Source: a virus
Virus record (IMG/VR): IMGVR_UViG_3300031539_000115
Coordinates: 1-40,159 of that record
Direction: 5' to 3' (one strand)
Length of the DNA stretch: 40,159 bases
Below, piece after piece: positions 3,056 through 33,430 of the stretch (its first letter is position 1; each line of letters begins with the position of its first letter). Position numbers and translations under genes: made by a program. The notes below the pieces were generated by a model. The model did not search any database, had not been told where the DNA came from, and saw nothing but the letters and a program-made list of their open reading frames with translations.

Positions 3056-3850
3056 ATGATACTATGCACAGCTCAATTTGATTTTAAAAGTAATAAAAAT
3101 TATAAACGCTTACTTAATGTTTTCGTTCAAAGCGTTAAAAAATACATACCCGAAATTGATATTAGAATTCTACGACTTGAGATGCCGCGAAAAGTTGACA
3201 ATACTCCTCTTAATTTTACGTGTAACACGATTAAGCTTAAGGCATGGGTGGATTTCTTGGGATCTGAGACAGATGATATAATATTTTCAGATTGTGATAT
3301 GATCTGTTCGGGTAATCCGCTTGGGGTTTTTGACCAAGAATTTGATGTTGCCTACACATCGACCGGCCTGAAATCTCCACCAATGAATGGCGGTATGTTG
3401 TTTGTCAGAAATAACCAACGAAGTCTCGATTTTTTTAAATCCTGGCTCTCGGTTAATAATAAAATGTATTATAACGATAAACAATTACATGCTCAATGGC
3501 GCGCTAAATACCTAGGGATGAATCAAGCTGCATTTGGATATTTGATCAATAATATCCCAGTTGAGGCTCAATTATTACCGGTCCCTACTCAAATATATAA
3601 TGCGGTAGATACAGATTGGAAAAACATTAATGATTTAACCTGTTTTATTCATATTAAGTCCGAATTACGCCGCGCTGTACTTAATAATATGGAGCCACAT
3701 GGGGTTTGTGAGCGCGCCATGAAGCTTTGGTACGAAATTCAGGCGGAGCTTCCGGTAGAGCAAAAAGAGTGCAGCCAGGAGCCTAAGAAGCCAGCCAGGC
3801 CTACAAGATATCGCAGGGTTCGGCGGCGTGGAAAAATTTTTAAAATATAA
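3056..3850 (+). CDS. GT-A fold glycosyltransferase, paralogue 1
   Basis: This is a putative nucleotide-sugar-dependent glycosyltransferase of 264 residues. It has an N-terminal strand (ILCTAQFDF), a DxD metal/nucleotide-sugar motif in FSDCDMICSGNP (D79, D81), an MNGGMLFVRN segment typical of GT-A acceptor-side loops, and a late HIKSELRR segment where a metal-binding His is expected. It is clearly related to the proteins at 9228 and 11174; all share an N/DQxxxG(Y/F) pattern and a final H-x-(K/H)-x-x-(L/R). The last 35 residues are unusually Lys/Arg/Pro-rich and not shared by the other two. Substrate (host polysaccharide, virion protein or DNA) cannot be read from the sequence. Confidence 0.75.
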   Translation: MILCTAQFDFKSNKNYKRLLNVFVQSVKKYIPEIDIRILRLEMPRKVDNTPLNFTCNTIKLKAWVDFLGSETDDIIFSDCDMICSGNPLGVFDQEFDVAYTSTGLKSPPMNGGMLFVRNNQRSLDFFKSWLSVNNKMYYNDKQLHAQWRAKYLGMNQAAFGYLINNIPVEAQLLPVPTQIYNAVDTDWKNINDLTCFIHIKSELRRAVLNNMEPHGVCERAMKLWYEIQAELPVEQKECSQEPKKPARPTRYRRVRRRGKIFKI

Positions 3851-5645: not shown

Positions 5646-6233
5646 GTGAAAAAAGGAAAAGCGTACGCCCATAAATCAGGACAAAGGCAGGGTGATTTAT
5701 ACCATACACCGAAAAGCTTAGTGTGGGTTGCTGAGGATATAATTAAAGATGAATTTCTAATTCAAATTTTAGAGCCTTGCGCTGGGCAAAAATATACTCC
5801 AATAGTCGAAGCCTTAGAACGTATTAATATGACTGTTGACTATAATGATTTGTTTGCTTTTGACGGAAAAGATTATTTAAAAGATGAATTTTTTATTGAT
5901 TATAATCAAATTATAACAAACCCACCTTTTAGCCTTTGGGATGAATTTGTATTGAAAGCAAAAACACACTGTAATAAATTCATGTTCATAGGTAGGCTTA
6001 ATTATTTCGGAACTCAATCAAGATTAGAAAAAGGAATCTGGAATAATTTAAAAGGGATTTATCCTTTTTCGCGCTATGTTGACTATCAAACACCATACCG
6101 GGATGACGGACTTTTTCATGTTGGGGCCATGGCGACTGCTTGGTTTTTGTGGGATATGGAATACACCGGAAAATTAGACTTTGAAATTCTGGACGTTGCA
6201 AAATATGCAAAGCTTGGGGCTTTTAAAAAATGA
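5646..6233 (+). CDS. DNA adenine methyltransferase (NPPF type)
   Basis: The 195-residue protein has LEPCAG (residues 42-47) as SAM-binding motif I and NPPF (92-95) as the catalytic loop, in the order used by gamma/alpha-type N6-adenine methyltransferases. YHTPKSL near residue 20 is a known lead-in of phage members. The start is GTG at 5646, with AGGAG ten bases upstream; there is no ATG alternative. It is short for a full enzyme with a target-recognition domain, so specificity may be low. The stop overlaps the next gene's ATG. Confidence 0.75.
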   Translation: MKKGKAYAHKSGQRQGDLYHTPKSLVWVAEDIIKDEFLIQILEPCAGQKYTPIVEALERINMTVDYNDLFAFDGKDYLKDEFFIDYNQIITNPPFSLWDEFVLKAKTHCNKFMFIGRLNYFGTQSRLEKGIWNNLKGIYPFSRYVDYQTPYRDDGLFHVGAMATAWFLWDMEYTGKLDFEILDVAKYAKLGAFKK

Positions 6234-6922
6234 AAAACATAGTACACCTAATCGACAATATGAAATTCATGGCCGATATTCCAGACAATCATTATGATCT
6301 GGCTATTTGTGACCCGCCTTATGGAATATCGGTGGGAAGTGTTAAACACTATCGAACAAAATTGACAGAATATAAACCTAAAGATTGGGATACAGAACCA
6401 CCACCGAAAGAATATTTTACTGAACTTTTTAGAATCTCGAAAAACCAAATTATATGGGGTGGGAACTATTTTACAAAAAATTTGCCACCTTCAAAATCGT
6501 GGATAGTTTGGGATAAAAAGCAACCAGAAGGATTAACTTTTTCAATGCATGAATTAGCATTTTGCAGTATTCCAAAAAAACAACCTAAAATATTCAGGCA
6601 TTATCCAGGTGGAAATAGAATTAGCAATAATGAAGAAAAAGCAAAGTTGTATAAAAAGATCCACCCAACTCAAAAACCAGTAGCATTATATAAATGGACA
6701 TTAAAAAATTATGCTAAACCTGGATGGTTAATATTAGATACAAATGTCGGCTCTGGCTCAATAAGAATAGCTTGTCATGATTTAGGTTTTGACTTTGAAG
6801 GCTGCGAGCTTGACCCGGATTACTGGCAAGCACAAGAAGAACGCTATCAAAATCACATATCACAACAATCATTATTTAATACTGAAGAAATACAGGATTT
6901 GATTTTTGAAGGAAAGGAGTAG
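6230..6922 (+). CDS. DNA methyltransferase, DPPY type (N4-cytosine/N6-adenine, beta order)
   Basis: The 230-residue enzyme has DPPYG (28-32) first and the SAM-binding segment ILDTNVGSGS (168-177) last, the beta-class order. HPTQKP (145-150) is the hallmark preceding motif I. TNVGSGS replaces the usual PFMGSGT, an atypical but plausible variant. It overlaps the previous gene by four bases and is followed after two bases by a shorter paralogue sharing 37 identical bases, so the pair arose by duplication. Confidence 0.85.
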   Translation: MKNIVHLIDNMKFMADIPDNHYDLAICDPPYGISVGSVKHYRTKLTEYKPKDWDTEPPPKEYFTELFRISKNQIIWGGNYFTKNLPPSKSWIVWDKKQPEGLTFSMHELAFCSIPKKQPKIFRHYPGGNRISNNEEKAKLYKKIHPTQKPVALYKWTLKNYAKPGWLILDTNVGSGSIRIACHDLGFDFEGCELDPDYWQAQEERYQNHISQQSLFNTEEIQDLIFEGKE

Positions 6923-6924
6923 AC

Positions 6925-7389
6925 ATGAAAAACATAGTCCACTTAATCGAAAACATGGAATTCATGAAAGACTTGCCTGATAATCATTATGATCTTGCTA
7001 TTGTTGACCCGCCTTATGGAATTGGTGAGAGTGGGAAAACAAATAAAACAAGAAGTAAATTAGCAATATCTAAGGATTACGGAAATAAAGACTGGGATAC
7101 AGAATCACCACCGAAAGAATATTTTACTGAACTTTTTAGAATAAGTAAAAATCAAATAATTTGGGGTGCTAATCATTTTATATCTAAAATATCAATAGAT
7201 TCTTCATGTTGGATTGTTTGGGATAAGGATAATGGAGCAAGTGATTTTGCAGATAGCGAATTGGCATACACCAGTTTTAAAACAGCAGTTAGAAACTTTA
7301 AATTCAAATGGCAAGGTATGCTTCAAGGCAACATGAAAAATAAAGAAAAACGAATCCACCACCCTCAGAGACCTTTTATAAAGCAATAG
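6925..7389 (+). pseudogene. Truncated second DPPY-type methyltransferase
   Basis: The first 140 residues parallel the upstream enzyme: same start (MKNIVHLI), DPPYG near residue 29 and ISKNQIIWG. The HPTQKP motif, however, is damaged (IHHPQRPF) and the frame then stops. Shifting frame after the Phe codon restores FYKAIEWMNKRSKTVS, which resembles the expected helix, but that frame also stops at about 7424, just where motif I (the SAM-binding GSG loop) should begin. The gene has therefore lost SAM binding through a frameshift and a break that coincides with the left edge of the foreign-looking block. It is unlikely to be an active enzyme alone. Confidence 0.7.
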
Positions 7390-7474: not shown

Positions 7475-8317
7475 ATGGAAATAACTTTAGTCACAGGATG
7501 CTTAATCTTTATCATCGCCTTTTTTGCGGAATTAACAGACTCGACACTTGGCATGGGTTACGGCACGGCCCTTACACCCATCCTTCTATTCATGGGATTT
7601 CAACCCCTAGAAGTAGTCCCGGCCATTCTGGTTTCGGAATTTGTCACTGGAATACTGGCCGGAATAGCCCATCAAAGCCTGGGAAACCTGACATTGATCA
7701 CTCCAAAGCCCTCGGGTAAAATTACCGGTTCACAGAAATTACCATTAAATTGGATAAAAAAAATAAAGGGCTTAAATGTTAACATGAAAAGCCTCATTGC
7801 AATTTCAAGCTTTGGTGTCGGCGGAACCATATTAGCAGTGGCATTAGCCATAAAACTCCCGGCTTTCTACGTAAAGCTCTATATTGGAATTCTCATCACA
7901 GCTATCGGCATACTCCTCTTCCTCACCAATAATAAAACCTATCACTTTTCCTGGAAGAGATTAAGTTTAATGGGGATTATGGCCTCATTTAATAAAGGAA
8001 TTTCAGGCGGAGGCTACGGACCCCTGATCACCGGAGGTCAAATACTCAGTGGTATTCCGGAAAAAACCGCCATTGGAATCACATCGATTTCTGAAGGACT
8101 AAGCTGCTTTGTCGGAATCATCATCTACCTGGCCTTTCGTGAAAATCCTTTTCAAAGCAGCCTTCTTCCCCTACTGGTTTGTGCCGGAACATTATCAGTG
8201 CCCTTTTCAGCCTTCTTTGTAAGCAAAATTGATGCAAAAAAATTAAGATGGTCAATGGCATGGATCACCCTTGGATTAGGAATATTTACATTAATAAAGC
8301 TAATTTTATCAAACTAA
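7475..8317 (+). CDS. TauE/SafE family membrane permease
   Basis: This inner-membrane protein has 280 residues and about eight hydrophobic segments. It is of the TauE/SafE family, which exports or imports sulfite, sulfonates or other organic anions. A GMGYG motif follows the first segment (about residue 27), and a second glycine-rich GGGYGPL (about residue 175) marks the family's internal duplication. The loop at about 75-100 is basic. Length is normal and the ORF is intact, with AAAGGAG upstream. Phages rarely carry this family; here it sits between two broken phage genes and faces a broken deaminase gene, so it most likely came as a piece of bacterial chromosome. Confidence 0.85.
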   Translation: MEITLVTGCLIFIIAFFAELTDSTLGMGYGTALTPILLFMGFQPLEVVPAILVSEFVTGILAGIAHQSLGNLTLITPKPSGKITGSQKLPLNWIKKIKGLNVNMKSLIAISSFGVGGTILAVALAIKLPAFYVKLYIGILITAIGILLFLTNNKTYHFSWKRLSLMGIMASFNKGISGGGYGPLITGGQILSGIPEKTAIGITSISEGLSCFVGIIIYLAFRENPFQSSLLPLLVCAGTLSVPFSAFFVSKIDAKKLRWSMAWITLGLGIFTLIKLILSN

Positions 8318-8956: not shown

Positions 8957-9238
8957 ATGAGAAGAAAGATCATTATAGATTTATTTTGCATTATAGTTTT
9001 ATCATTATTTGCCTGGATTAATGTTTTGGCTTTTAGCGAAGTATTTTTTGCTGAGGAAGAAGTAGAATCTATTTTTGGATGGATCGTGTTTCTTGCTTTA
9101 GAGGGTGTTATTGCTCTTATATGTTTTTGTTGTATTCTTTCGTTCTTGACTGAAGAATTCATAGCACCTTTTCTTTCTGAAAAAATAACAGACTTTTGGG
9201 AGTGGATCGACGAACTGGACAGCCGCGATGAAGATTAA
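8957..9238 (+). CDS. Small two-pass membrane protein (93 aa)
   Basis: There are two hydrophobic segments, about residues 5-27 and 39-63, separated by an acidic loop (FAEEEVES). A charged, acidic C-terminal tail (about 30 residues, ending DSRDED) probably lies on one face of the membrane. It has its own strong promoter and ribosome site and overlaps the glycosyltransferase start by 11 bases. Together with the glycosyltransferase it could form a membrane-associated surface-modification pair. That link is positional only; GtrA-like flippases are larger, with four segments. Confidence 0.6.
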   Translation: MRRKIIIDLFCIIVLSLFAWINVLAFSEVFFAEEEVESIFGWIVFLALEGVIALICFCCILSFLTEEFIAPFLSEKITDFWEWIDELDSRDED

Positions 9239-9929
9239 AATAATAACAGCGGTTTTTGACTACCCAGGAAAAAATGAGTATTCAAGATGTTTGACAGCGC
9301 TTGAGAATTCAATCAAAGCTAACGCGCCAAACGTGGAATTTACTTGTATTCAGCTTGAACCTCCAGCGACGTGTTTTGCCTGGAATAAACCAGGCTGGCA
9401 CAATAACCATATCAAGCTCAGGGCTTATTCTAGTGTAAAAATTGATTGTCCGACGTTTTTTGTTGATGCAGATACAATTGTTTTAAAAGACCTCACTCCT
9501 CTCGTGTCTGAGGATTTTGACATTGCAATTGCTGAGCGGCCAGAGAGAGCAAAGGCGCCTTTCAATATGGGCGTTATTTTGTTTATGCCAACAGATAAGG
9601 CTATAGCGTTCATGGGCGACTGGATAGGTATTGATGAACTGATGTTGAAAAATATAGAGCTACACATGGAATATCGGAATAAATATTCCGGTCAAAATCA
9701 ATCATCCTTTGGTTTTTTGTATGAGAGATCGCAGAATATAATCATAGACAAATACCCTACAAAAATAATGAACGCAGTAGAGCAAGATTGGGGCGACATA
9801 AGCCAAGCATTTATATTGCATGTCAAAACACGTCTTAGGGATGCCGCTCTTGGTGACCTTCCGATTGAACGTATACACTCTCGATTACAAACAGGAGTCC
9901 AACTTTGGCGACAGTACGAAAAAGCTTGA
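9228..9929 (+). CDS. GT-A fold glycosyltransferase, paralogue 2
   Basis: This 233-residue protein has a DxD motif in FFVDADTIVLKD (D80, D82), an FNMGVILF acceptor-loop segment, NQSSFGFLY and a late HVKTRLRD. It aligns along its whole length with the protein at 3056, including the NAVEQDW/NAVDTDW segment, so the two are close paralogues. It lacks that protein's basic tail. It is translated from an ATG inside the end of the membrane protein gene. Donor and acceptor sugars are unknown. Confidence 0.75.
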   Translation: MKIKIITAVFDYPGKNEYSRCLTALENSIKANAPNVEFTCIQLEPPATCFAWNKPGWHNNHIKLRAYSSVKIDCPTFFVDADTIVLKDLTPLVSEDFDIAIAERPERAKAPFNMGVILFMPTDKAIAFMGDWIGIDELMLKNIELHMEYRNKYSGQNQSSFGFLYERSQNIIIDKYPTKIMNAVEQDWGDISQAFILHVKTRLRDAALGDLPIERIHSRLQTGVQLWRQYEKA

Positions 9930-10995: not shown

Positions 10996-11177
10996 ACCTA
11001 AAAAAACAAGACAACATTATAAGCGACTTGATTTATGCGATAGAGGCGCAACAAGTAGAGATTAGCGACTTCGAGGAGGAATTTATTAGTTCTATTTGGA
11101 GCAAGATTTCTCACGGCTGCAAGCTATCTCACAAAGAAGAGCACATTTTAGTAAAAATTCACGGGAGGATCGCATGA
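10992..11177 (+). CDS. Hypothetical small acidic protein (61 aa)
   Basis: This is a helical 61-residue protein, acidic in its first two thirds (QQVEISDFEEEF), with a basic His-rich end (SHKEEHILVKIHGRIA). It starts at an ATGA overlap with the C5 methyltransferase and overlaps the following glycosyltransferase by four bases, so it is a translationally coupled link. No family is recognised. Confidence 0.55.
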   Translation: MNLKKQDNIISDLIYAIEAQQVEISDFEEEFISSIWSKISHGCKLSHKEEHILVKIHGRIA

Positions 11178-11902
11178 AAAAACCGATAGTATTTTCAATA
11201 TGGTTTGACCGCCACGAAGAGATAAGCCGATATAAAGAATATTCCAAGGTTTGGAAGGTCTCAGCAGAAAAGCACCTTAAAGACGTTGAACATCATTGTA
11301 TGGCTGTTGATCCTCCAAACTTTGATGATCCGTGTCCGGTTTTTCATCGTGGAGACCGTAAGATCGGACCGTCAAAAACGCTTTCCTGGTTGAAAAAGAT
11401 TGATATGTGGGAAAAACTTATTGATAAGCATCCAGACCGGCCTATATTAATGTGCGACACTGATATTGCTTTTTTCGGTAATCCGTTCGACGAGTTGCTG
11501 GCTGGAGAATTTGATTTCGATGTTGCATTATGCGGCAACAATACCGGAGCGGTATATTTTAGCGGTAGTAAGAAATCTCGCGAATTTATGAGGCAGTGGT
11601 GGTTTACGACGCACTATTTATTCGATCGTCCTAAGTTGTATCAAAAATTGGACAAGAAATATAAGGGGTTGGATCAATCCTCAATGGGTTATATGCTTGA
11701 GCAAGGCAGCCATAACGCGGATGTTTTACAGTTGCCAAGAAGATTCCATTCAATTTGGAACGATTACGAACACCCTTGTTACTTGATGCATTATCATAGT
11801 TCGCTTAAGAGCGTTGTTTTCAACGAAAAAAAAACGCCACTACTTGGCGCCGTGCAATATTACAAAGACGCTTGGTTAGCGTATAGAAGCGAGGTTGAAT
11901 AA
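11174..11902 (+). CDS. GT-A fold glycosyltransferase, paralogue 3
   Basis: The start at 11174 follows GGGAGG; the longer frame upstream is only overlap with the previous gene. The 242-residue protein has a DxD in MCDTDIAFFGNP (D95, D97), GAVYFSGSKKS in place of the NGGMLF loop, LDQSSMGYML and a late MHYHSSLK. These match the positions of the same motifs in the proteins at 3056 and 9228, at lower overall similarity. It opens the run glycosyltransferase, sulfotransferase, SAM methyltransferase, portal, all overlapping or touching. Confidence 0.7.
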   Translation: MKKPIVFSIWFDRHEEISRYKEYSKVWKVSAEKHLKDVEHHCMAVDPPNFDDPCPVFHRGDRKIGPSKTLSWLKKIDMWEKLIDKHPDRPILMCDTDIAFFGNPFDELLAGEFDFDVALCGNNTGAVYFSGSKKSREFMRQWWFTTHYLFDRPKLYQKLDKKYKGLDQSSMGYMLEQGSHNADVLQLPRRFHSIWNDYEHPCYLMHYHSSLKSVVFNEKKTPLLGAVQYYKDAWLAYRSEVE

Positions 11903-12492
11903 TGATAGTAATAATATTAGGAATGCACAAATCAGGCACAACGCTAATTGCAAAAACACTACATGAGTCAGGAATAAATATGGGCGTCACAAGTTACGGG
12001 GATTATCCAAGATGTAAATATGAGGACCCGATTGTTCAGCAAATTACAAAACAGCTTGTGCATGGTAAGCAGAACAGGCACAGCCTTGATATTCCAACTT
12101 CAGATATGTCAAAATTTGTTACACAAGAAATATTTGATCGGATGAAGGACTATGTAATAGACAGGGTTCATAAGCACGGTTATGATTGGGGCTTTAAATT
12201 CCCTGATGTAACTTTGTGTTATGATCTCTGGAAACAAATACTGCCTTATCATATCGCTATAGGCGTGAAAAGAAAGCGCGAATCAATTATAAATCATTAT
12301 TTACGCCGAAAAACAAAACTGCACACGGTTGACGAAATCAACCGTGTGTGCGACTTGTATGAAGAGGCACTTTTAGTGTATAATGTCCCTATTGTTAATT
12401 ATGAGGATTATTTAGAGCTTGGAACTAAGCCACTTGAAGATATCCTCAAAATCAAGCTAAAGGACTGTAGAATACATGGGAAGCAGAAGTAA
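11902..12492 (+). CDS. Sulfotransferase-like protein
   Basis: The N-terminus, MIVIILGMHKSGTTLIAKTL, is the PAPS-binding loop of the sulfotransferase superfamily (G-M-H-(K/R)-S-G-T-T). Later segments include GFKFPDVTLCYDLW and GVKRKRESIINHYL, where the 3'-phosphate-binding Arg/Ser region is expected. The enzyme would move sulfate from PAPS to a glycan hydroxyl. At 196 residues it is a minimal version. Its start shares one base with the glycosyltransferase stop (TAATG), which points to joint action on the same glycan. A kinase-like P-loop is an alternative reading, but the HKSGTT pattern favours sulfotransferase. Confidence 0.7.
   Translation: MIVIILGMHKSGTTLIAKTLHESGINMGVTSYGDYPRCKYEDPIVQQITKQLVHGKQNRHSLDIPTSDMSKFVTQEIFDRMKDYVIDRVHKHGYDWGFKFPDVTLCYDLWKQILPYHIAIGVKRKRESIINHYLRRKTKLHTVDEINRVCDLYEEALLVYNVPIVNYEDYLELGTKPLEDILKIKLKDCRIHGKQK
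12321..12349. repeat. 12-bp perfect inverted repeat with 5-base loop inside the sulfotransferase gene
   Basis: GCACACGGTTGA at 12321-12332 is the exact complement of 12338-12349, around the loop CGAAA. The RNA would form a very stable hairpin in mid-gene. No T tract follows, so it is not an ordinary terminator. It encodes part of HTVDEINRVC. Confidence 0.75.
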
Positions 12493-13013: not shown

Positions 13014-14444
13014 ATGGGAATTTTCGACTGGCTAAAAGGCAAGCAAACAATAGACAATAGCAATGTGACAAAATTTTCACCAAGAAGGCCGGCCCCGAGA
13101 GACTGGACCGACGATCTTGTTGTAAATAAAGAATTAACAAAAGGCTTGTTTCATAATACCTACCCAGGAATGAAGCTTGCCGGGGGCCTGGCCTTTGCTC
13201 CGATTGCGATTCCTGTCTGGCTTATGGGCTATCCGGTTCCAAGTCCTGTCGAGGAAGACGAAAGCGCCAGTGAGGACATTGAGTATTTGCTTGATCATTT
13301 TAAAACAGAAATGAAACAAATACATTTACAGTGTCATAGAGATGGGACAATATGGATTTTTCCGAAATGGGTAGCTTCGTTAAATAAGCTTATTTGGGAG
13401 TTTATACCCGATCCGTCAGTCTCGGACATTATAAGAGATATTGAAACCGGCGAGATAGTCGAAATAATAGTTGATGAACTTTTGGGAATAAAAATAGGAG
13501 AAAATAAAGTTGTATATGTCAGAAGAAAAAGATACTTTACGACAAAAAAAATAACAGAGCTTTGGCTTGAAGGGAAAGATCAGGTTCCAAAAGAACTAAA
13601 ATCTAAAACTTATAGAAATATCGCTGGCATCTTGCCGGTTCCTTTTTCTAATAACAAAGATGCTGAAGAAGTTAGGGGATATCCAGACCTTGAGAGAATA
13701 ATCACGGATTTAAAATCATATCATGATATTGATCTGCAGCGGTCGAATATGCTTGCAAAGTTTCAGCCAAAAATGGTTCAGCGTGTTAATGATCCTGCAT
13801 CCTGGCTATCAAATAACGGATATACAGACATTAACCAAATCAAAGTTTACGATCTTGATGTTATAATCAACAAAGGAGAAGTTGAAGCTACGGAATTTCA
13901 GTCTCTTGATTTTTCAGCTTATACGGCATACGAAGGCGCATTAAAGCAAAAATTTCAAAAGATAGTTGAGGCGTCCGGAGTTCCTGAGATTGCCTGGGGA
14001 TTGAAGACAACCGGAAACAACGCCAGTGTTGAAGAATCAATGGCTTCGCTTGTGAAATTTGTGATAGACAAGCAAGAGCAAAAAACAAATCAATATGAAA
14101 AATTGTTTTTTGCTTCGCTATCATTATATCGGATGGCCACAATCGGAGGCTCTGGAGTGCCTTTAAAAATAAAATGGAATGACCTTGACGCTGTCAGCGA
14201 TGCAACAAAAGCGACTGTCTTTAAAGGCTTTGCCGAAGCGGTCGGCGTATTGGTTAAGAATGCAGCAATGACCAAAGAGCAGCTATTAAACCTGTGGACT
14301 CAATTATATCCAAAAGCAACAAAGGAGGAATATGATATTTTCGTACTTGGCCTGTCAGATATGGCTCAGCACGTACAATATACCAATGCGAGTTATTCTG
14401 AGACATTGGATTTTAAACAACAAGAAGAGGAGATAACAGAATGA
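13014..14444 (+). CDS. Portal protein
   Basis: This forms the dodecameric ring at the capsid vertex through which DNA enters. The 476-residue protein fits the SPP1-gp6/DUF935-like portal group. It has an early KGLFHNTYPGMKLAG region, a beta-rich wing with DIETGEIVEII, the PVPFSNNKDAEEVRGYPDLE segment, and a long stem helix (AYEGALKQKFQKIVEASGVP) followed by a clip-like LKTTGNNASVEESMASL. The length is usual. It starts two bases after the SAM methyltransferase gene and ends in an ATGA overlap with the sugar dehydrogenase gene, an unusual neighbour. Confidence 0.82.
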   Translation: MGIFDWLKGKQTIDNSNVTKFSPRRPAPRDWTDDLVVNKELTKGLFHNTYPGMKLAGGLAFAPIAIPVWLMGYPVPSPVEEDESASEDIEYLLDHFKTEMKQIHLQCHRDGTIWIFPKWVASLNKLIWEFIPDPSVSDIIRDIETGEIVEIIVDELLGIKIGENKVVYVRRKRYFTTKKITELWLEGKDQVPKELKSKTYRNIAGILPVPFSNNKDAEEVRGYPDLERIITDLKSYHDIDLQRSNMLAKFQPKMVQRVNDPASWLSNNGYTDINQIKVYDLDVIINKGEVEATEFQSLDFSAYTAYEGALKQKFQKIVEASGVPEIAWGLKTTGNNASVEESMASLVKFVIDKQEQKTNQYEKLFFASLSLYRMATIGGSGVPLKIKWNDLDAVSDATKATVFKGFAEAVGVLVKNAAMTKEQLLNLWTQLYPKATKEEYDIFVLGLSDMAQHVQYTNASYSETLDFKQQEEEITE

Positions 14445-15196
14445 GGAAAGTATTGATAATCGGCTATGGGGTAGTTGGTCAGAATATGCACAAGCTTTTT
14501 AAAAATGCAAGCATCGCCGACCCACCGAAAGGATTTACAATCAACGAAGAAGAAAGATTTGATGTTGCGTTTGTCTGCGTTCCCACGGAAAAAAAAGCAG
14601 ATGGTACTTGTGATACATCAATTGTGGAAAGAGTTATTGTAGATTATGCGGAAAATGTAGATATTTTTTGTATAAAATCAACCGTGCCGCCTGAGACGAC
14701 CAAAAAAATAGGATCGGATTATTATGTCAAAGTTGTTTTTTCTCCTGAATACTTCGGCGAGACAATACACGCAAACGGCGCTGATTATAATTTTCTTATT
14801 CTTGGTGGGAAACGGACCTACGCATCTGTTGTTGCGGAAGCTTATAAGGAAATATCACACTCAAGCCTTGAAATCATATTTACTAGTTCAAGGACAGCGG
14901 AACTTTGTAAATATATGGAAAATTGCTGGCTTGCTGCTAAGGTGACTTTTTGTAATGAATTCGCAAGAATATCAAGTATGATTGGTGTTGATTACAATGA
15001 ACTACGCGAATTATGGTTAAAGGACCCAAGGATAAATAGATCTCATACGTTTGTATATAAAGACAATCCTTATTATTCAAGCCACTGTCTAAACAAAGAT
15101 ATTCCTGCCTTAATAGCTTTTGCTGAGTCTGTTGGCGGTGATCCTTCTTTAATGCGTTCTGTTTTTCAGACTAACGAAAAGCACATGAATGACTAA
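14441..15196 (+). CDS. Short UDP-glucose/GDP-mannose dehydrogenase family protein
   Basis: This is a nucleotide-sugar 6-dehydrogenase relative that would oxidise a UDP- or GDP-hexose to the uronic acid with NAD. It has a Rossmann GYGVVG (8-13), VPT (47-49), KSTVPP (79-84), SPE (101-103), the AELCKYMENCWLAAK central helix (from 153) and a catalytic-type Cys216 in SSHCLNKDIPAL. It ends at 251 residues, so the C-terminal UDP-binding domain of the usual 400-450-residue enzymes is missing. It overlaps the portal stop and the head protein start, so it is embedded in the morphogenesis operon. Confidence 0.78.
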   Translation: MRKVLIIGYGVVGQNMHKLFKNASIADPPKGFTINEEERFDVAFVCVPTEKKADGTCDTSIVERVIVDYAENVDIFCIKSTVPPETTKKIGSDYYVKVVFSPEYFGETIHANGADYNFLILGGKRTYASVVAEAYKEISHSSLEIIFTSSRTAELCKYMENCWLAAKVTFCNEFARISSMIGVDYNELRELWLKDPRINRSHTFVYKDNPYYSSHCLNKDIPALIAFAESVGGDPSLMRSVFQTNEKHMND

Positions 15197-18986: not shown

Positions 18987-19016
18987 AAGCCTGGTTAATC
19001 GCCAGGCTTTTTTATT
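18987..19016. terminator. Bidirectional rho-independent terminator
   Basis: AAGCCTGG (18987-18994) pairs with CCAGGCTT (19002-19009), followed by TTTTATTT on the + strand and by ATATTTT on the - strand. It closes the capsid operon and, from the other side, the reversed small-gene island. Confidence 0.88.
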
Positions 19017-19019
19017 TAA

Positions 19020-19355
19020 TTATCCGTCGCCGTAGCCGTTGCCGCCGTAGATGTCGCCACATTCGTCGTCGCCTTCGCATCCGCCGTAGCCGTAGCCGTT
19101 GCCGTAGCCGTATCCGCCGAAGCCGTAGCCGTATCCGCCACATTCGTCGTCGCCTTCGCATCCGCCGTAGCCGTAGCCGTTGCCGTAGCCGTATCCGCCG
19201 AAGCCGTAGCCGTATCCGCCGAAGCCGTCGCCGTCGCCGTCGCCGTCGCCGCAGCAGTTGCCGTCGCAGTTGCCGTCGCAGCCGTCGCCGTAGCCATCTC
19301 CGTGTCCGTCGCCGTATTCGTCGTCGTCGTAGAAAACAGTTATTATTTTTTCCAT
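19020..19355 (-). CDS. Gly/Asp/Tyr/Cys-rich tandem-repeat protein (111 aa)
   Basis: After a normal start (MEKIITVFYDDDEYGDG) the protein consists almost only of Gly, Asp, Tyr, Asn and Cys. A GDGDGDGDGFGG run is followed by two exact copies of a 27-residue unit containing YGYGFGGYGYGNG and GCEGDDEC. Nearly every Gly codon is GGC, making a GC-rich stretch in AT-rich DNA. The start overlaps the preceding gene by 13 bases, with no separate ribosome site. It may be a metal- or surface-binding protein or a structural, disordered one. Other frames over this DNA are also open, so coding is likely but not certain. Confidence 0.55.
   Translation of the reverse strand: MEKIITVFYDDDEYGDGHGDGYGDGCDGNCDGNCCGDGDGDGDGFGGYGYGFGGYGYGNGYGYGGCEGDDECGGYGYGFGGYGYGNGYGYGGCEGDDECGDIYGGNGYGDG
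19060..19220. repeat. Two tandem copies of an 81-base unit
   Basis: Positions 19060-19139 and 19141-19220 are identical over 80 bases, with a period of 81 bases (27 codons). The unit itself is built of shorter CCGTAGCCG/CCGTATCCG-type elements, so copy number could change by slippage or recombination without breaking the frame. Confidence 0.9.
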
Positions 19356-19612
19356 AACTTTTTATCACTTTCGATTATTAGTATCTTCGCGTTTTTAGCG
19401 ATCCTTACTGTTCCATAATCATCTAGTGTGGTTTTTTCTTTTGGCCCTTCCGCTGCAAGTTCGCCTAAGCCGTGGGATGTCCCCCATCTTCTTATGTTTC
19501 TTGCATTATAGATGATACATTCTTTTCCAAAATCTTCGATATCGCCAACAAAGACCCATCCTCTTTCTGCGACAACGATTCCAAATCCCTTTAAAAAAAT
19601 TTCTTTCTTCAT
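19343..19612 (-). CDS. Hypothetical protein (89 aa)
   Basis: The start is set at 19612, a few bases after TAGGAG; a longer frame upstream has no ribosome site. The protein is mixed alpha/beta with a Gly/Trp-rich N-terminal half (GFGIVVAERGWVFVGDIEDF) and a basic C-terminus (SDKKLWKK). It is the fourth gene of the reversed island. No family is recognised. Confidence 0.55.
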   Translation of the reverse strand: MKKEIFLKGFGIVVAERGWVFVGDIEDFGKECIIYNARNIRRWGTSHGLGELAAEGPKEKTTLDDYGTVRIAKNAKILIIESDKKLWKK

Positions 19613-31083: not shown

Positions 31084-32202
31084 ATGAGCATATTAGATAG
31101 ATTAGGAAGATGGGATATCGTGTCATATTCAAGTTATTTGACATACACACCGAAGAGCGGAGAAATAATATATTTTAACTCTGTAATAACCGGCCAAGTC
31201 GGACTGGCTGCTGTTATGGGAGACGGCACAACCGCAGTATCAGGGTTGCCATTTATGGACGAATTAGTAATTAACTCATCCTCTAATGTTGACTTGGAAG
31301 ACTTAAGAACAACAGGGAATAAAGCAAGAATATACAATTCGGGCTCTTCTACTATTGAAATAGAAATAGGTATATCAGGATCATCAAGGATATTTTATTT
31401 ACTGCCAAATAAAGATGCATCTTTTTTTTATAACGGTGCAAAATGGATACATGAAAAAGAGAATGTTATTACTATGACTGATGCTGATTTAGTGATAGTA
31501 GATGTTACAGGTCCAACAAGAGTAATAATGCCTTCTTCTGGTATTACAGCTAATAGAACTGTTACTTTACCAACGTTGGCTGATAATCAAAATCAAGTTA
31601 TTAGATTTGATAATTTAAATACTTCTTATGCTTTGTTTATCGATGGAGAAGGTGCTGAAACAATAGAGGGCTTTGATACAATAAATTTATCAACTGAATA
31701 TACAATTCTTGAAGGAAATTCAAGTGAATGGAAAAGAATCGGATATGAACCAAATAGACCTGTTTACCACTATAGAGATGAAAAAGCAGCCGGAACAGAT
31801 GGCGGAGGCTCTACAGCTACAACATGGACAAAAAGAACGTGTGATGATTTAGTGTTAAATCAAATTATAGGAGCTTCACAGGCTTCAAGTGTTCATACGT
31901 TACCCCCAGGAACTTATGAGATTCTTTGTACATCGCCATTTTACAGGGTTGGTCAATTGAAATTAAAACTAAGAAATACAACAGATGGAAGTGATACAGC
32001 TATAAGCACTAATGATTATTGTAATACAACAAACGGAGCAGCAACAATAACAATTGAAGATAGATTTACCATTACAGCATCAAAGAATTTTGAAGTTCAA
32101 TATCATGTTGCGTCAGCCGTTGCATCTAATGGATTGGGCGTTACAGGTATTGGATCTGTCATAGATATATACACAGATTTAATTTTTACAAAATTAATTT
32201 AA
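31084..32202 (+). CDS. Tail fibre / receptor-binding protein with C-terminal jelly-roll domain (372 aa)
   Basis: The AAAGGAG ribosome site lies nine bases upstream. The N-terminal half is strand-rich (SSYLTYTPKSGEIIYF, LPTLADNQNQVIRF and FIDGEGAETIEGFDTI, typical of fibre shafts). The last 130 residues contain VHTLPPGTYEILCTSPFYRV and LKLKLRNTTDGSD, the jelly-roll pattern of fibre tips. It shares this domain with the protein at 28334, so the phage may present two related binding heads. Confidence 0.65.
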   Translation: MSILDRLGRWDIVSYSSYLTYTPKSGEIIYFNSVITGQVGLAAVMGDGTTAVSGLPFMDELVINSSSNVDLEDLRTTGNKARIYNSGSSTIEIEIGISGSSRIFYLLPNKDASFFYNGAKWIHEKENVITMTDADLVIVDVTGPTRVIMPSSGITANRTVTLPTLADNQNQVIRFDNLNTSYALFIDGEGAETIEGFDTINLSTEYTILEGNSSEWKRIGYEPNRPVYHYRDEKAAGTDGGGSTATTWTKRTCDDLVLNQIIGASQASSVHTLPPGTYEILCTSPFYRVGQLKLKLRNTTDGSDTAISTNDYCNTTNGAATITIEDRFTITASKNFEVQYHVASAVASNGLGVTGIGSVIDIYTDLIFTKLI

Positions 32203-32280: not shown

Positions 32281-32317
32281 TTTAATGAAAATCAAATAAA
32301 ACTAAGAGGTGTTCTTC

Positions 32318-32728
32318 ATGGCAGGCATTACAGCGGAGGATAAAAAATTTATCCACGATCTACTAGGTCCTATAAAAGATAAAATAGAGCTTATAGCTGA
32401 AAATCAAAAGTCTTTATTTCACAAACAAGAAAGTTTAGATTCAACCCTGAGAGATTTTATGGAAATTCAAAATTCTTACATACTTGATTTTGAATTGTTA
32501 AAAATATCTATAAATGGAAATGGATCAAAAGGGATAAAAGATATTTTAAAAGATCATATATCATATCACGAGCGCAAGGAAAAAGAAGAAAAACAGGCAG
32601 TTGAGAAAAAACAACTAGTAGTTAATACAAACAAAAATAAAAACAGAGCGCTTATAGTCACGATGCTAATAGCTATTATTAGCGCTGCGGCTTCAATAAT
32701 TACATCGTTAATATCTATAGGAGGTTAA
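32318..32728 (+). CDS. Coiled-coil protein with C-terminal membrane anchor, XhlA-like lysis candidate (136 aa)
   Basis: The start at 32318 (MAGITAEDKK) is preferred to the upstream GTG, which lies in the ribosome site. The product is mostly a charged helix/coiled coil (about 1-105, with KEKEEKQAVEKKQ) followed by one C-terminal membrane helix (IVTMLIAIISAAASIITSLI). This is the plan of XhlA-type proteins that work with a holin. The next two genes are also small membrane proteins, which supports a lysis cassette, though no endolysin is seen. Confidence 0.55.
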   Translation: MAGITAEDKKFIHDLLGPIKDKIELIAENQKSLFHKQESLDSTLRDFMEIQNSYILDFELLKISINGNGSKGIKDILKDHISYHERKEKEEKQAVEKKQLVVNTNKNKNRALIVTMLIAIISAAASIITSLISIGG

Positions 32729-32729
32729 T

Positions 32730-32954
32730 ATGAAACTAACAAGTCGAAAAGTAATCGCGTATATTGCTAACACTGTAATATTTTCAGCATACGTCGTTGT
32801 TTGTATGGTAAAATTCCCGCAACTACTTGAAAATATTTTTACCTCATTTGCTTATTTTCAACTCGTTAATACTGGTATTTTTTTAGGCTCTAATTCTGTT
32901 GACAAAATTGCATGGATTAAGAGCAATATAAAAAAAGAGGGAAAGGATGAATGA
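32730..32954 (+). CDS. Putative holin (74 aa, two membrane helices)
   Basis: Hydrophobic stretches at about residues 9-28 and 37-53 are separated by a short turn (KFPQLLEN), followed by a charged C-terminal tail (IKSNIKKEGKDE). This is the size and topology of class II holins. It starts two bases after the coiled-coil gene and ends overlapping the two spanin-like starts. The identification is by context and topology only. Confidence 0.55.
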   Translation: MKLTSRKVIAYIANTVIFSAYVVVCMVKFPQLLENIFTSFAYFQLVNTGIFLGSNSVDKIAWIKSNIKKEGKDE

Positions 32955-33354
32955 TAAAAAAACTATTATTATTTTTGTTATTCTTGCCTGTTTTTTGTTT
33001 GGCTCAGGAGTCGCAACCGGATATATTATCTTTGCACCCAGAGGAGTTGACGTTGATACTTCAAGAATTGACGATATCGCAAACGACATTGAAGGCATTG
33101 CAGAAAGAGAGCTTGAATATCAAGAGTCTTTTGACGATATCGCAAACGAGGCAGAAAGAACAGCAAGCGGAATTACAGAAAGCCTCGGAAGAGTTGAAAG
33201 AAGCATTGACTTATCAGTTGCTAATAATAGAAATAGCGAACAAGCATTCAATTCAGCCGGAAGAGTTGAAAAAATGGCTACAGAAACGATTGAAAGACTT
33301 GAGCGAGTTAAGAGAATATTGCGAGAGGCTGGAGAGAGAAAACAAAGACCTTGA
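32947..33354 (+). CDS. Spanin-like protein A: N-terminal membrane anchor and coiled coil (135 aa)
   Basis: This frame begins at the first of two ATGs four bases apart. It encodes an N-terminal membrane helix (TIIIFVILACFLFGSGVATG) and then a long heptad-like helix (RIDDIANDIEGIAERELEY onward, ending in basic ERKQRP). This is the layout of Rz-type i-spanins, which join inner and outer membranes during lysis. The entire gene lies within the frame at 32951, read one base apart, so both share the same 400 bases. Confidence 0.6.
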   Translation: MNDKKTIIIFVILACFLFGSGVATGYIIFAPRGVDVDTSRIDDIANDIEGIAERELEYQESFDDIANEAERTASGITESLGRVERSIDLSVANNRNSEQAFNSAGRVEKMATETIERLERVKRILREAGERKQRP

Positions 33355-33430
33355 ATTTCAGCGTAATATTTTTATTTGTGTTAGTGCGGCTGGCGTTGGG
33401 TTATTTATTTATAATTTATTTGTAAAATAA
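32951..33430 (+). CDS. Spanin-like protein B: signal peptide, helical body and C-terminal membrane segment (159 aa)
   Basis: This frame starts at the second ATG. It encodes a signal sequence (KKLLLFLLFLPVFC, then LAQES), a long acidic/basic helix (about 20-135) and a C-terminal membrane helix (IFICVSAAGVGLFIYNLF). If the Cys in PVFC were lipidated, this would have the layout of a one-protein (u-) spanin such as phage T1 gp11; the residue before Cys (Phe) is unusual for a lipobox. It extends 76 bases beyond frame A and ends at the terminator. Confidence 0.6.
   Translation: MIKKLLLFLLFLPVFCLAQESQPDILSLHPEELTLILQELTISQTTLKALQKESLNIKSLLTISQTRQKEQQAELQKASEELKEALTYQLLIIEIANKHSIQPEELKKWLQKRLKDLSELREYCERLERENKDLEFQRNIFICVSAAGVGLFIYNLFVK

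Follow-up and report, generated by a model that had tools for sequence, protein, structure and literature searches.

The lambda genes Rz and Rz1 are the textbook example of nested genes, and a u-spanin joins an N-terminal outer-membrane lipid anchor and a C-terminal inner-membrane helix; to our knowledge, all known spanins use a lipoprotein. According to PMC6139136, most known embedded pairs have a short lipoprotein as o-spanin, its start lying at 0.4-0.5 of the i-spanin length, and the periplasmic domain of the gp11 family consists of a short helix and a beta-rich portion. In those sections of open-licence papers that could be consulted, no coextensive pair of the kind described here was found. 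The window, by which we mean the whole stretch of DNA from an uncultured virus that was analysed (40,159 nucleotides, IMG/VR virus record IMGVR_UViG_3300031539_000115), holds two overlapping frames, A and B, at its lysis locus. In this pair and its counterparts in relatives, the predicted products are coextensive membrane proteins, 111-159 residues long, and would take nesting to its limit.

Organization of the locus

The features of the lysis region of the window are as follows.

32309..32728, + strand, ORF of 139 aa (136 aa from the ATG at 32318), helical, with a C-terminal membrane segment
32730..32954, + strand, ORF for a holin-like small membrane protein of 74 aa with two hydrophobic segments
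32937..32946, + strand, GAGGGAAAGG, putative ribosome-binding region common to both starts (from the sequence and a spacing table of seven members)
32947..33354, + strand, gene A, ORF of 135 aa with its ATG at 32947
32951..33430, + strand, gene B, ORF of 159 aa with its ATG at 32951

Frame B is +1 relative to frame A, the two starts lie 4 nt apart and the stretch common to both is 404 nt. A first-pass annotation had noticed two ATGs four bases apart that open two frames across ~400 bases, and these are present as it claimed. The ATG of A falls within the final codons of the holin-like ORF, which ends ...GAT GAA TGA, and the stop codon of that ORF (32952-32954) overlaps the ATG of B (ATGA). The convergence of three frames at ATGAATGATAA (the holin-like ORF, A and B), also described in that annotation, was confirmed by the ORF coordinates. 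Immediately upstream of the holin-like gene is the 32309..32728 ORF, for which Pfam, PHROGs and NCBIfam gave no convincing family match; the holin-like ORF of the window had no family match in the same three collections, and its equivalent in one relative (G039) matched a holin family faintly (phrog_9407, E 0.013).

Relatives carrying the pair

Searched singly, neither A nor B was matched by any cultured phage; Pfam, PHROGs and NCBIfam offered nothing convincing, and from the viral collection either one alone retrieved only a near-identical copy or noise. Relatives were reached by walking via the terminase and the capsid, which led to ~35 related records; for these two proteins, identity was mostly 40-72%. 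Six of the records have an overlapped A/B pair at their lysis locus (G015/L032, G013/L033, G002/L034, G018/L128, G022/L132 and G039/L183), and in all seven members, the window included, B is in the same relative phase, A+1. Identity of the six to the window was 18-28% for A and ~13-33%, depending on the alignment, for B; global alignment Z-scores were positive in 21/21 pairs of A proteins and 21/21 pairs of B proteins, with a mean of ~3. The 51 kb record IMGVR 3300031566_000056 has a locus identical to that of the window, and a single SNP separates the two records over the 10.4 kb that were compared. Relatives were either near-identical, the single SNP lying outside the locus, or <35% identical.

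Stops in one of the two frames, which according to the first-pass annotation would count against the pair, were looked for across the distant relatives and none was found. Its central claim, that the lysis region contains two full-length, co-starting overlapped genes, is strengthened by the retention of the pair in seven lineages. Profiles made from the few B sequences brought in no further members and returned only two faint coiled-coil matches. A relaxed scan for co-starting ORF pairs with hydrophobic starts, covering 1.24 Mb with some stretches counted twice, recovered the seven pairs described above and nothing else. Applied to order-3 Markov-shuffled sequence, it yielded 6 counts when three replicates and both phase settings were taken together. 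The pair has been kept across phages though its proteins have diverged to ~20% identity, and it would provide a rare multi-lineage dataset on two full proteins maintained in one stretch of DNA. Automatic annotation would normally discard one gene of such a pair.

Comparison with known spanins

The pair resembles lambda Rz/Rz1 in having two putative lysis proteins in overlapping frames of one strand, the second in the +1 frame, after holin/endolysin genes, and in that A has the outline of an i-spanin. It departs from the lambda type in that A and B of five of the seven members are coextensive and start together, that B exceeds A in length in six, and that B is without a lipobox and has an extra C-terminal membrane helix. 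In none of the seven does B start where an embedded o-spanin usually would, at 0.4-0.5 of the i-spanin length. P2-type overlapped spanins, which are found in three sister phages (G011, G030 and G033), also follow a holin-like gene and also have a downstream gene that extends beyond the end of the upstream one; however, the two sister genes share ~74-86 nt and the downstream one encodes a lipoprotein, whereas A and B overlap by 300-400 nt and B is a non-lipoprotein. B resembles the T1 gp11-type u-spanins in its predicted signal peptide, its elongated periplasmic domain and its C-terminal membrane helix, but it has no lipobox, is helical and always occurs with A. As the lipobox and position features failed, A/B was filed neither as a two-component spanin nor as a u-spanin; the pair may well work like a spanin.

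Evidence for coding in both frames

In a recoding test, one protein was held fixed and its codons were redrawn from the phage's own usage in 20000 trials. With B of the window fixed, frame A was open in 0/20000 trials (mean 8.5 stops), and with A fixed, frame B was open in 1/20000 (mean 8.9 stops). Across the members, ~3-13 stops were expected in the other frame. Frame A was open given B in 0/20000 trials in G013, as in the window, in 1/20000 in G039, 3/20000 in G022 and 5/20000 in G002, in 0.2% in G018 and in 6% in the GC-rich G015; frame B was open given A in 0 to 0.9% of trials in all seven members. Permuting only the gene's own codons gave weaker values in the same direction.

A codon-usage score, built to separate true frames from off-frames, ranked A and B of every member between the 94th and the 100th percentile of off-frames. 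For A of the window, the score corresponded to the 100th percentile among off-frames and the 68th among true genes, and for B to the 98th among off-frames. The third frame scored at the 0-35th percentile of off-frames and contained 9-18 stops across the members; that of the window, with 18 stops, is not coding-like. Across 587 gene-sized ORFs of the same records, each with its two alternative frames, a comparable co-starting overlap arose by chance in ~1% of frames. Six of the seven members were found by seeking the pattern, so a product of the seven probabilities is not to be quoted; ascertainment cannot explain the dual-coding result. On these sequence statistics, dual coding and conservation of the pair in seven divergent phages are strongly supported, owing to the recoding tests, the coding-like codon statistics and the divergent relatives with the same pair, and both frames are very probably genes.

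Translation starts

The start of B is offset from that of A by 4, 4, -2, -2, -5, 67 and 70 nt in the seven members. In five, the start codons are therefore 2-5 nt apart, with one Shine-Dalgarno region before both; the co-start strings are ATGAATG, GTGTG, ATGTG and ATGATATG. In the window, GAGGGAAAGG places GAGG 6 nt from the ATG of A and AAGGA 3 nt from the ATG of B. The other two members, G018 and G022, have a B start ~70 nt inside A, preceded by a purine-rich GGGGGA (G018, assigned by eye) or by AAGGAG (G022). B extends 7-124 nt beyond the end of A in the seven members, and the stop codon of the upstream gene overlaps, or is within ~10 nt of, one of the two starts in every one of them.

The best reading of this arrangement is that A and B are made via dual initiation, mostly from one ribosome-binding site. 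Ribosomes that end the holin-like gene, or that bind the adjacent Shine-Dalgarno region, would initiate at both starts, and two starts 4 nt apart in different frames would yield two proteins out of one 400 nt. Two out-of-frame starts behind one ribosome-binding site, as at most of the loci, would be a simple means of fixing a subunit ratio. Programmed frameshifting was ruled out, since each frame has its own start codon.

Predicted products of A and B

A predicted N-terminal membrane anchor spans approximately residues 6-29 of A, and the part after it is a hydrophilic helical domain; the structure model of A is helical, with low confidence. The outline of an i-spanin, an N-terminal membrane helix with a mostly helical remainder, is found in A of all seven members. 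Several A proteins gave faint matches to Rz-like spanin PHROGs, two of them to PHROG 739; these hints are weak, because coiled-coil proteins faintly match many unrelated families. The Rz family profile of Pfam, PF03245, had no match in the seven records, which is not decisive, as known spanins fall into many unrelated families. The membrane helix, the helical remainder and the faint PHROG matches together point weakly to an i-spanin (Rz)-like protein, in agreement with the first-pass description of A as Rz-like. The string ILAC at Cys15 of A in the window fits the lipobox consensus; A was nevertheless rejected as a lipoprotein, the sequence being hydrophobic past the cysteine and the relatives having no lipobox there.

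B begins with a signal peptide that, judged by eye, is of the signal peptidase I type, with cleavage probably after CLA. An AlphaFold2 model of B (pLDDT 78) has a break at residues 21-24, a long helix at ~30-99 and a helix at 103-158, and the predicted C-terminal membrane segment covers residues ~138-158. All seven B proteins have such a C-terminal membrane helix (hydropathy 1.87-2.77), and none of them has a lipobox. The first-pass view of B as u-spanin-like stands as far as the C-terminal membrane segment is concerned and fails for the lipoprotein signal.

Lysis neighbourhood and sister phages

The upstream neighbours of A/B are holin-like membrane proteins, and in the relatives also M15, M23, CHAP or C39 peptidases; beside the window's own pair no endolysin was identified. 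The anatomy of A and B and their position at a holin/endolysin locus are shown by the sequences. In the sisters G011, G030 and G033, a classical overlapped pair of an i-spanin and a lipoprotein comes after holin-like genes, and the i-spanins of G030 and G033 match the Rz-like PHROG 739. A/B occupies the slot of the classical i-/o-spanins of these sister phages. An o-spanin-like lipoprotein was not found in any A/B record, some of these records being fragments, and the pattern is suggestive, and only that, of exclusion. The 51 kb record contains one small lipoprotein ORF (L035 3081-3320), which is far from the lysis locus.

Class 3 lipase-like genes lie near the lysis genes of two relatives, G039 (L183:2980-3591; Pfam Lipase_3, E 5e-16) and G015 (L032:3667-4260; Lipase_3, E 2e-4, just below the cut-off). 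A lipid hydrolase beside a spanin-like pair that has no lipoprotein could bear on outer-membrane disruption.

Proposed role and alternatives

We lean towards the reading that A/B is a dual-coded, two-component, spanin-like lysis module, in which the non-lipoprotein B replaces the outer-membrane lipoprotein. A would have a cytoplasmic N-terminus, one membrane helix and a periplasmic helical domain. B would be exported via a cleaved signal peptide and would consist of a long periplasmic helix and an inner-membrane C-terminal helix, a topology opposite to that of A. Once the endolysin has acted, a helical complex of the two would most likely disrupt the outer membrane. We infer expression of both proteins, their topology, their interaction and their role in outer-membrane disruption from the features described above. 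The spanin-like reading is opposed by the structure of B itself, which has no lipobox and no evident outer-membrane anchor, so that a defining feature of a spanin is missing. Speculatively, the distal, N-terminal end of B might rupture the outer membrane by contact, or the outer membrane of the host might be fragile. That the host has an outer membrane we infer from the signal peptides and from the o-spanins of the sister phages.

The claim that only one gene is real, the other frame being open through codon composition and its hydrophobic start arising from T-rich sequence, is close to refuted. It draws on the capacity of T-rich starts to yield hydrophobic residues in two frames together, on the recodings of GC-rich G015, 6% of which left frame A open, and on the few pairs in order-3 Markov sequences that pass the relaxed scan; yet six of the seven members individually reject it, phase, co-start and membrane segments are the same in all seven, and both frames have a coding-like codon score throughout. 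It is also very improbable that B alone is a u-spanin and A a second, independent protein, since A is conserved to the same degree as B. The outline of B, a signal peptide with a C-terminal membrane helix, is that of a u-spanin, and two of the B proteins have a cysteine near the end of the signal peptide (Cys16 in the window, position 21 in G002); in the window, however, this cysteine sits in the string LPVFC with phenylalanine at -1, and in five of the seven B proteins the signal peptide ends without a cysteine. A precedent would be offered by atypical lipoboxes, AWAC among them, that have been found in spanins (PMC6139136).

Both frames may instead be genes whose products are no substitute for spanins and act as a holin partner or antiholin, as a regulator of lysis timing or as an inner-membrane scaffold beside the holin. 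This we regard as unlikely, though it deserves more serious attention than the two readings above. A and B both appear to be anchored in the inner membrane and neither has an outer-membrane anchor, and small membrane proteins next to holins are often regulators; an overlap of the P1 LydA/LydB type, cited in PMC7692668, is a precedent for a regulator. Long helical periplasmic domains are, on the other hand, unlike antiholins, classical spanins occupy the same slot in sister phages, and A resembles i-spanins.

Should the spanin-like module indeed disrupt the outer membrane, it would dispense with the lipoprotein of known spanins. A/B could then be proposed, tentatively and with some doubt, as a new class of lysis module, in which inner-membrane helical A and B, coextensive and of opposite topology, replace lipoprotein-dependent spanins and the outer membrane is broken without a lipoprotein. 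The proposal covers one family of uncultured phages, most members of which have one ribosome-binding site and starts 2-5 nt apart.

Host and other features of the window

A genome scan with the terminase pointed to no coherent host. The metagenome-assembled genome (MAG) UBA1221, which is labelled Cyanobacteria (L036 / G042), contains two contigs with this terminase family. The family was present in 0/288 other genomes of the class of UBA1221, on which grounds binning contamination is suspected; the UBA1221 copies are probably contigs of phages that were assigned to the wrong host during binning.

Several other genes of the window were recorded. Two tandem, similar methyltransferase genes are located at 6230-6922 and 6925-7389, the second of which looks truncated, with the MKNIVHLI... 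start repeated and no Pfam match. A gene for a TauE/SafE-type membrane exporter (7475-8317, E 5e-23) adjoins DNA methyltransferase genes. Nucleotide-sugar-transferase-like genes, together with a weak sulfotransferase-like match, are found at 3056-3850, 9228-9929 and 11096-12492, suggesting a set for the modification of surface glycans. A UDP-glucose/GDP-mannose dehydrogenase-like gene (14441-15196) is placed directly between the portal gene and a probable head protein gene. The region 19012-19368, on the minus strand, is highly repetitive; one of its frames is rich in Arg, another in Gly/Asp/Tyr. The tail-fibre-like protein encoded at 31084-32202 is 36% identical to Sulfitobacter phage tail fibres over its C-terminal residues 227-371 and is otherwise unrelated.
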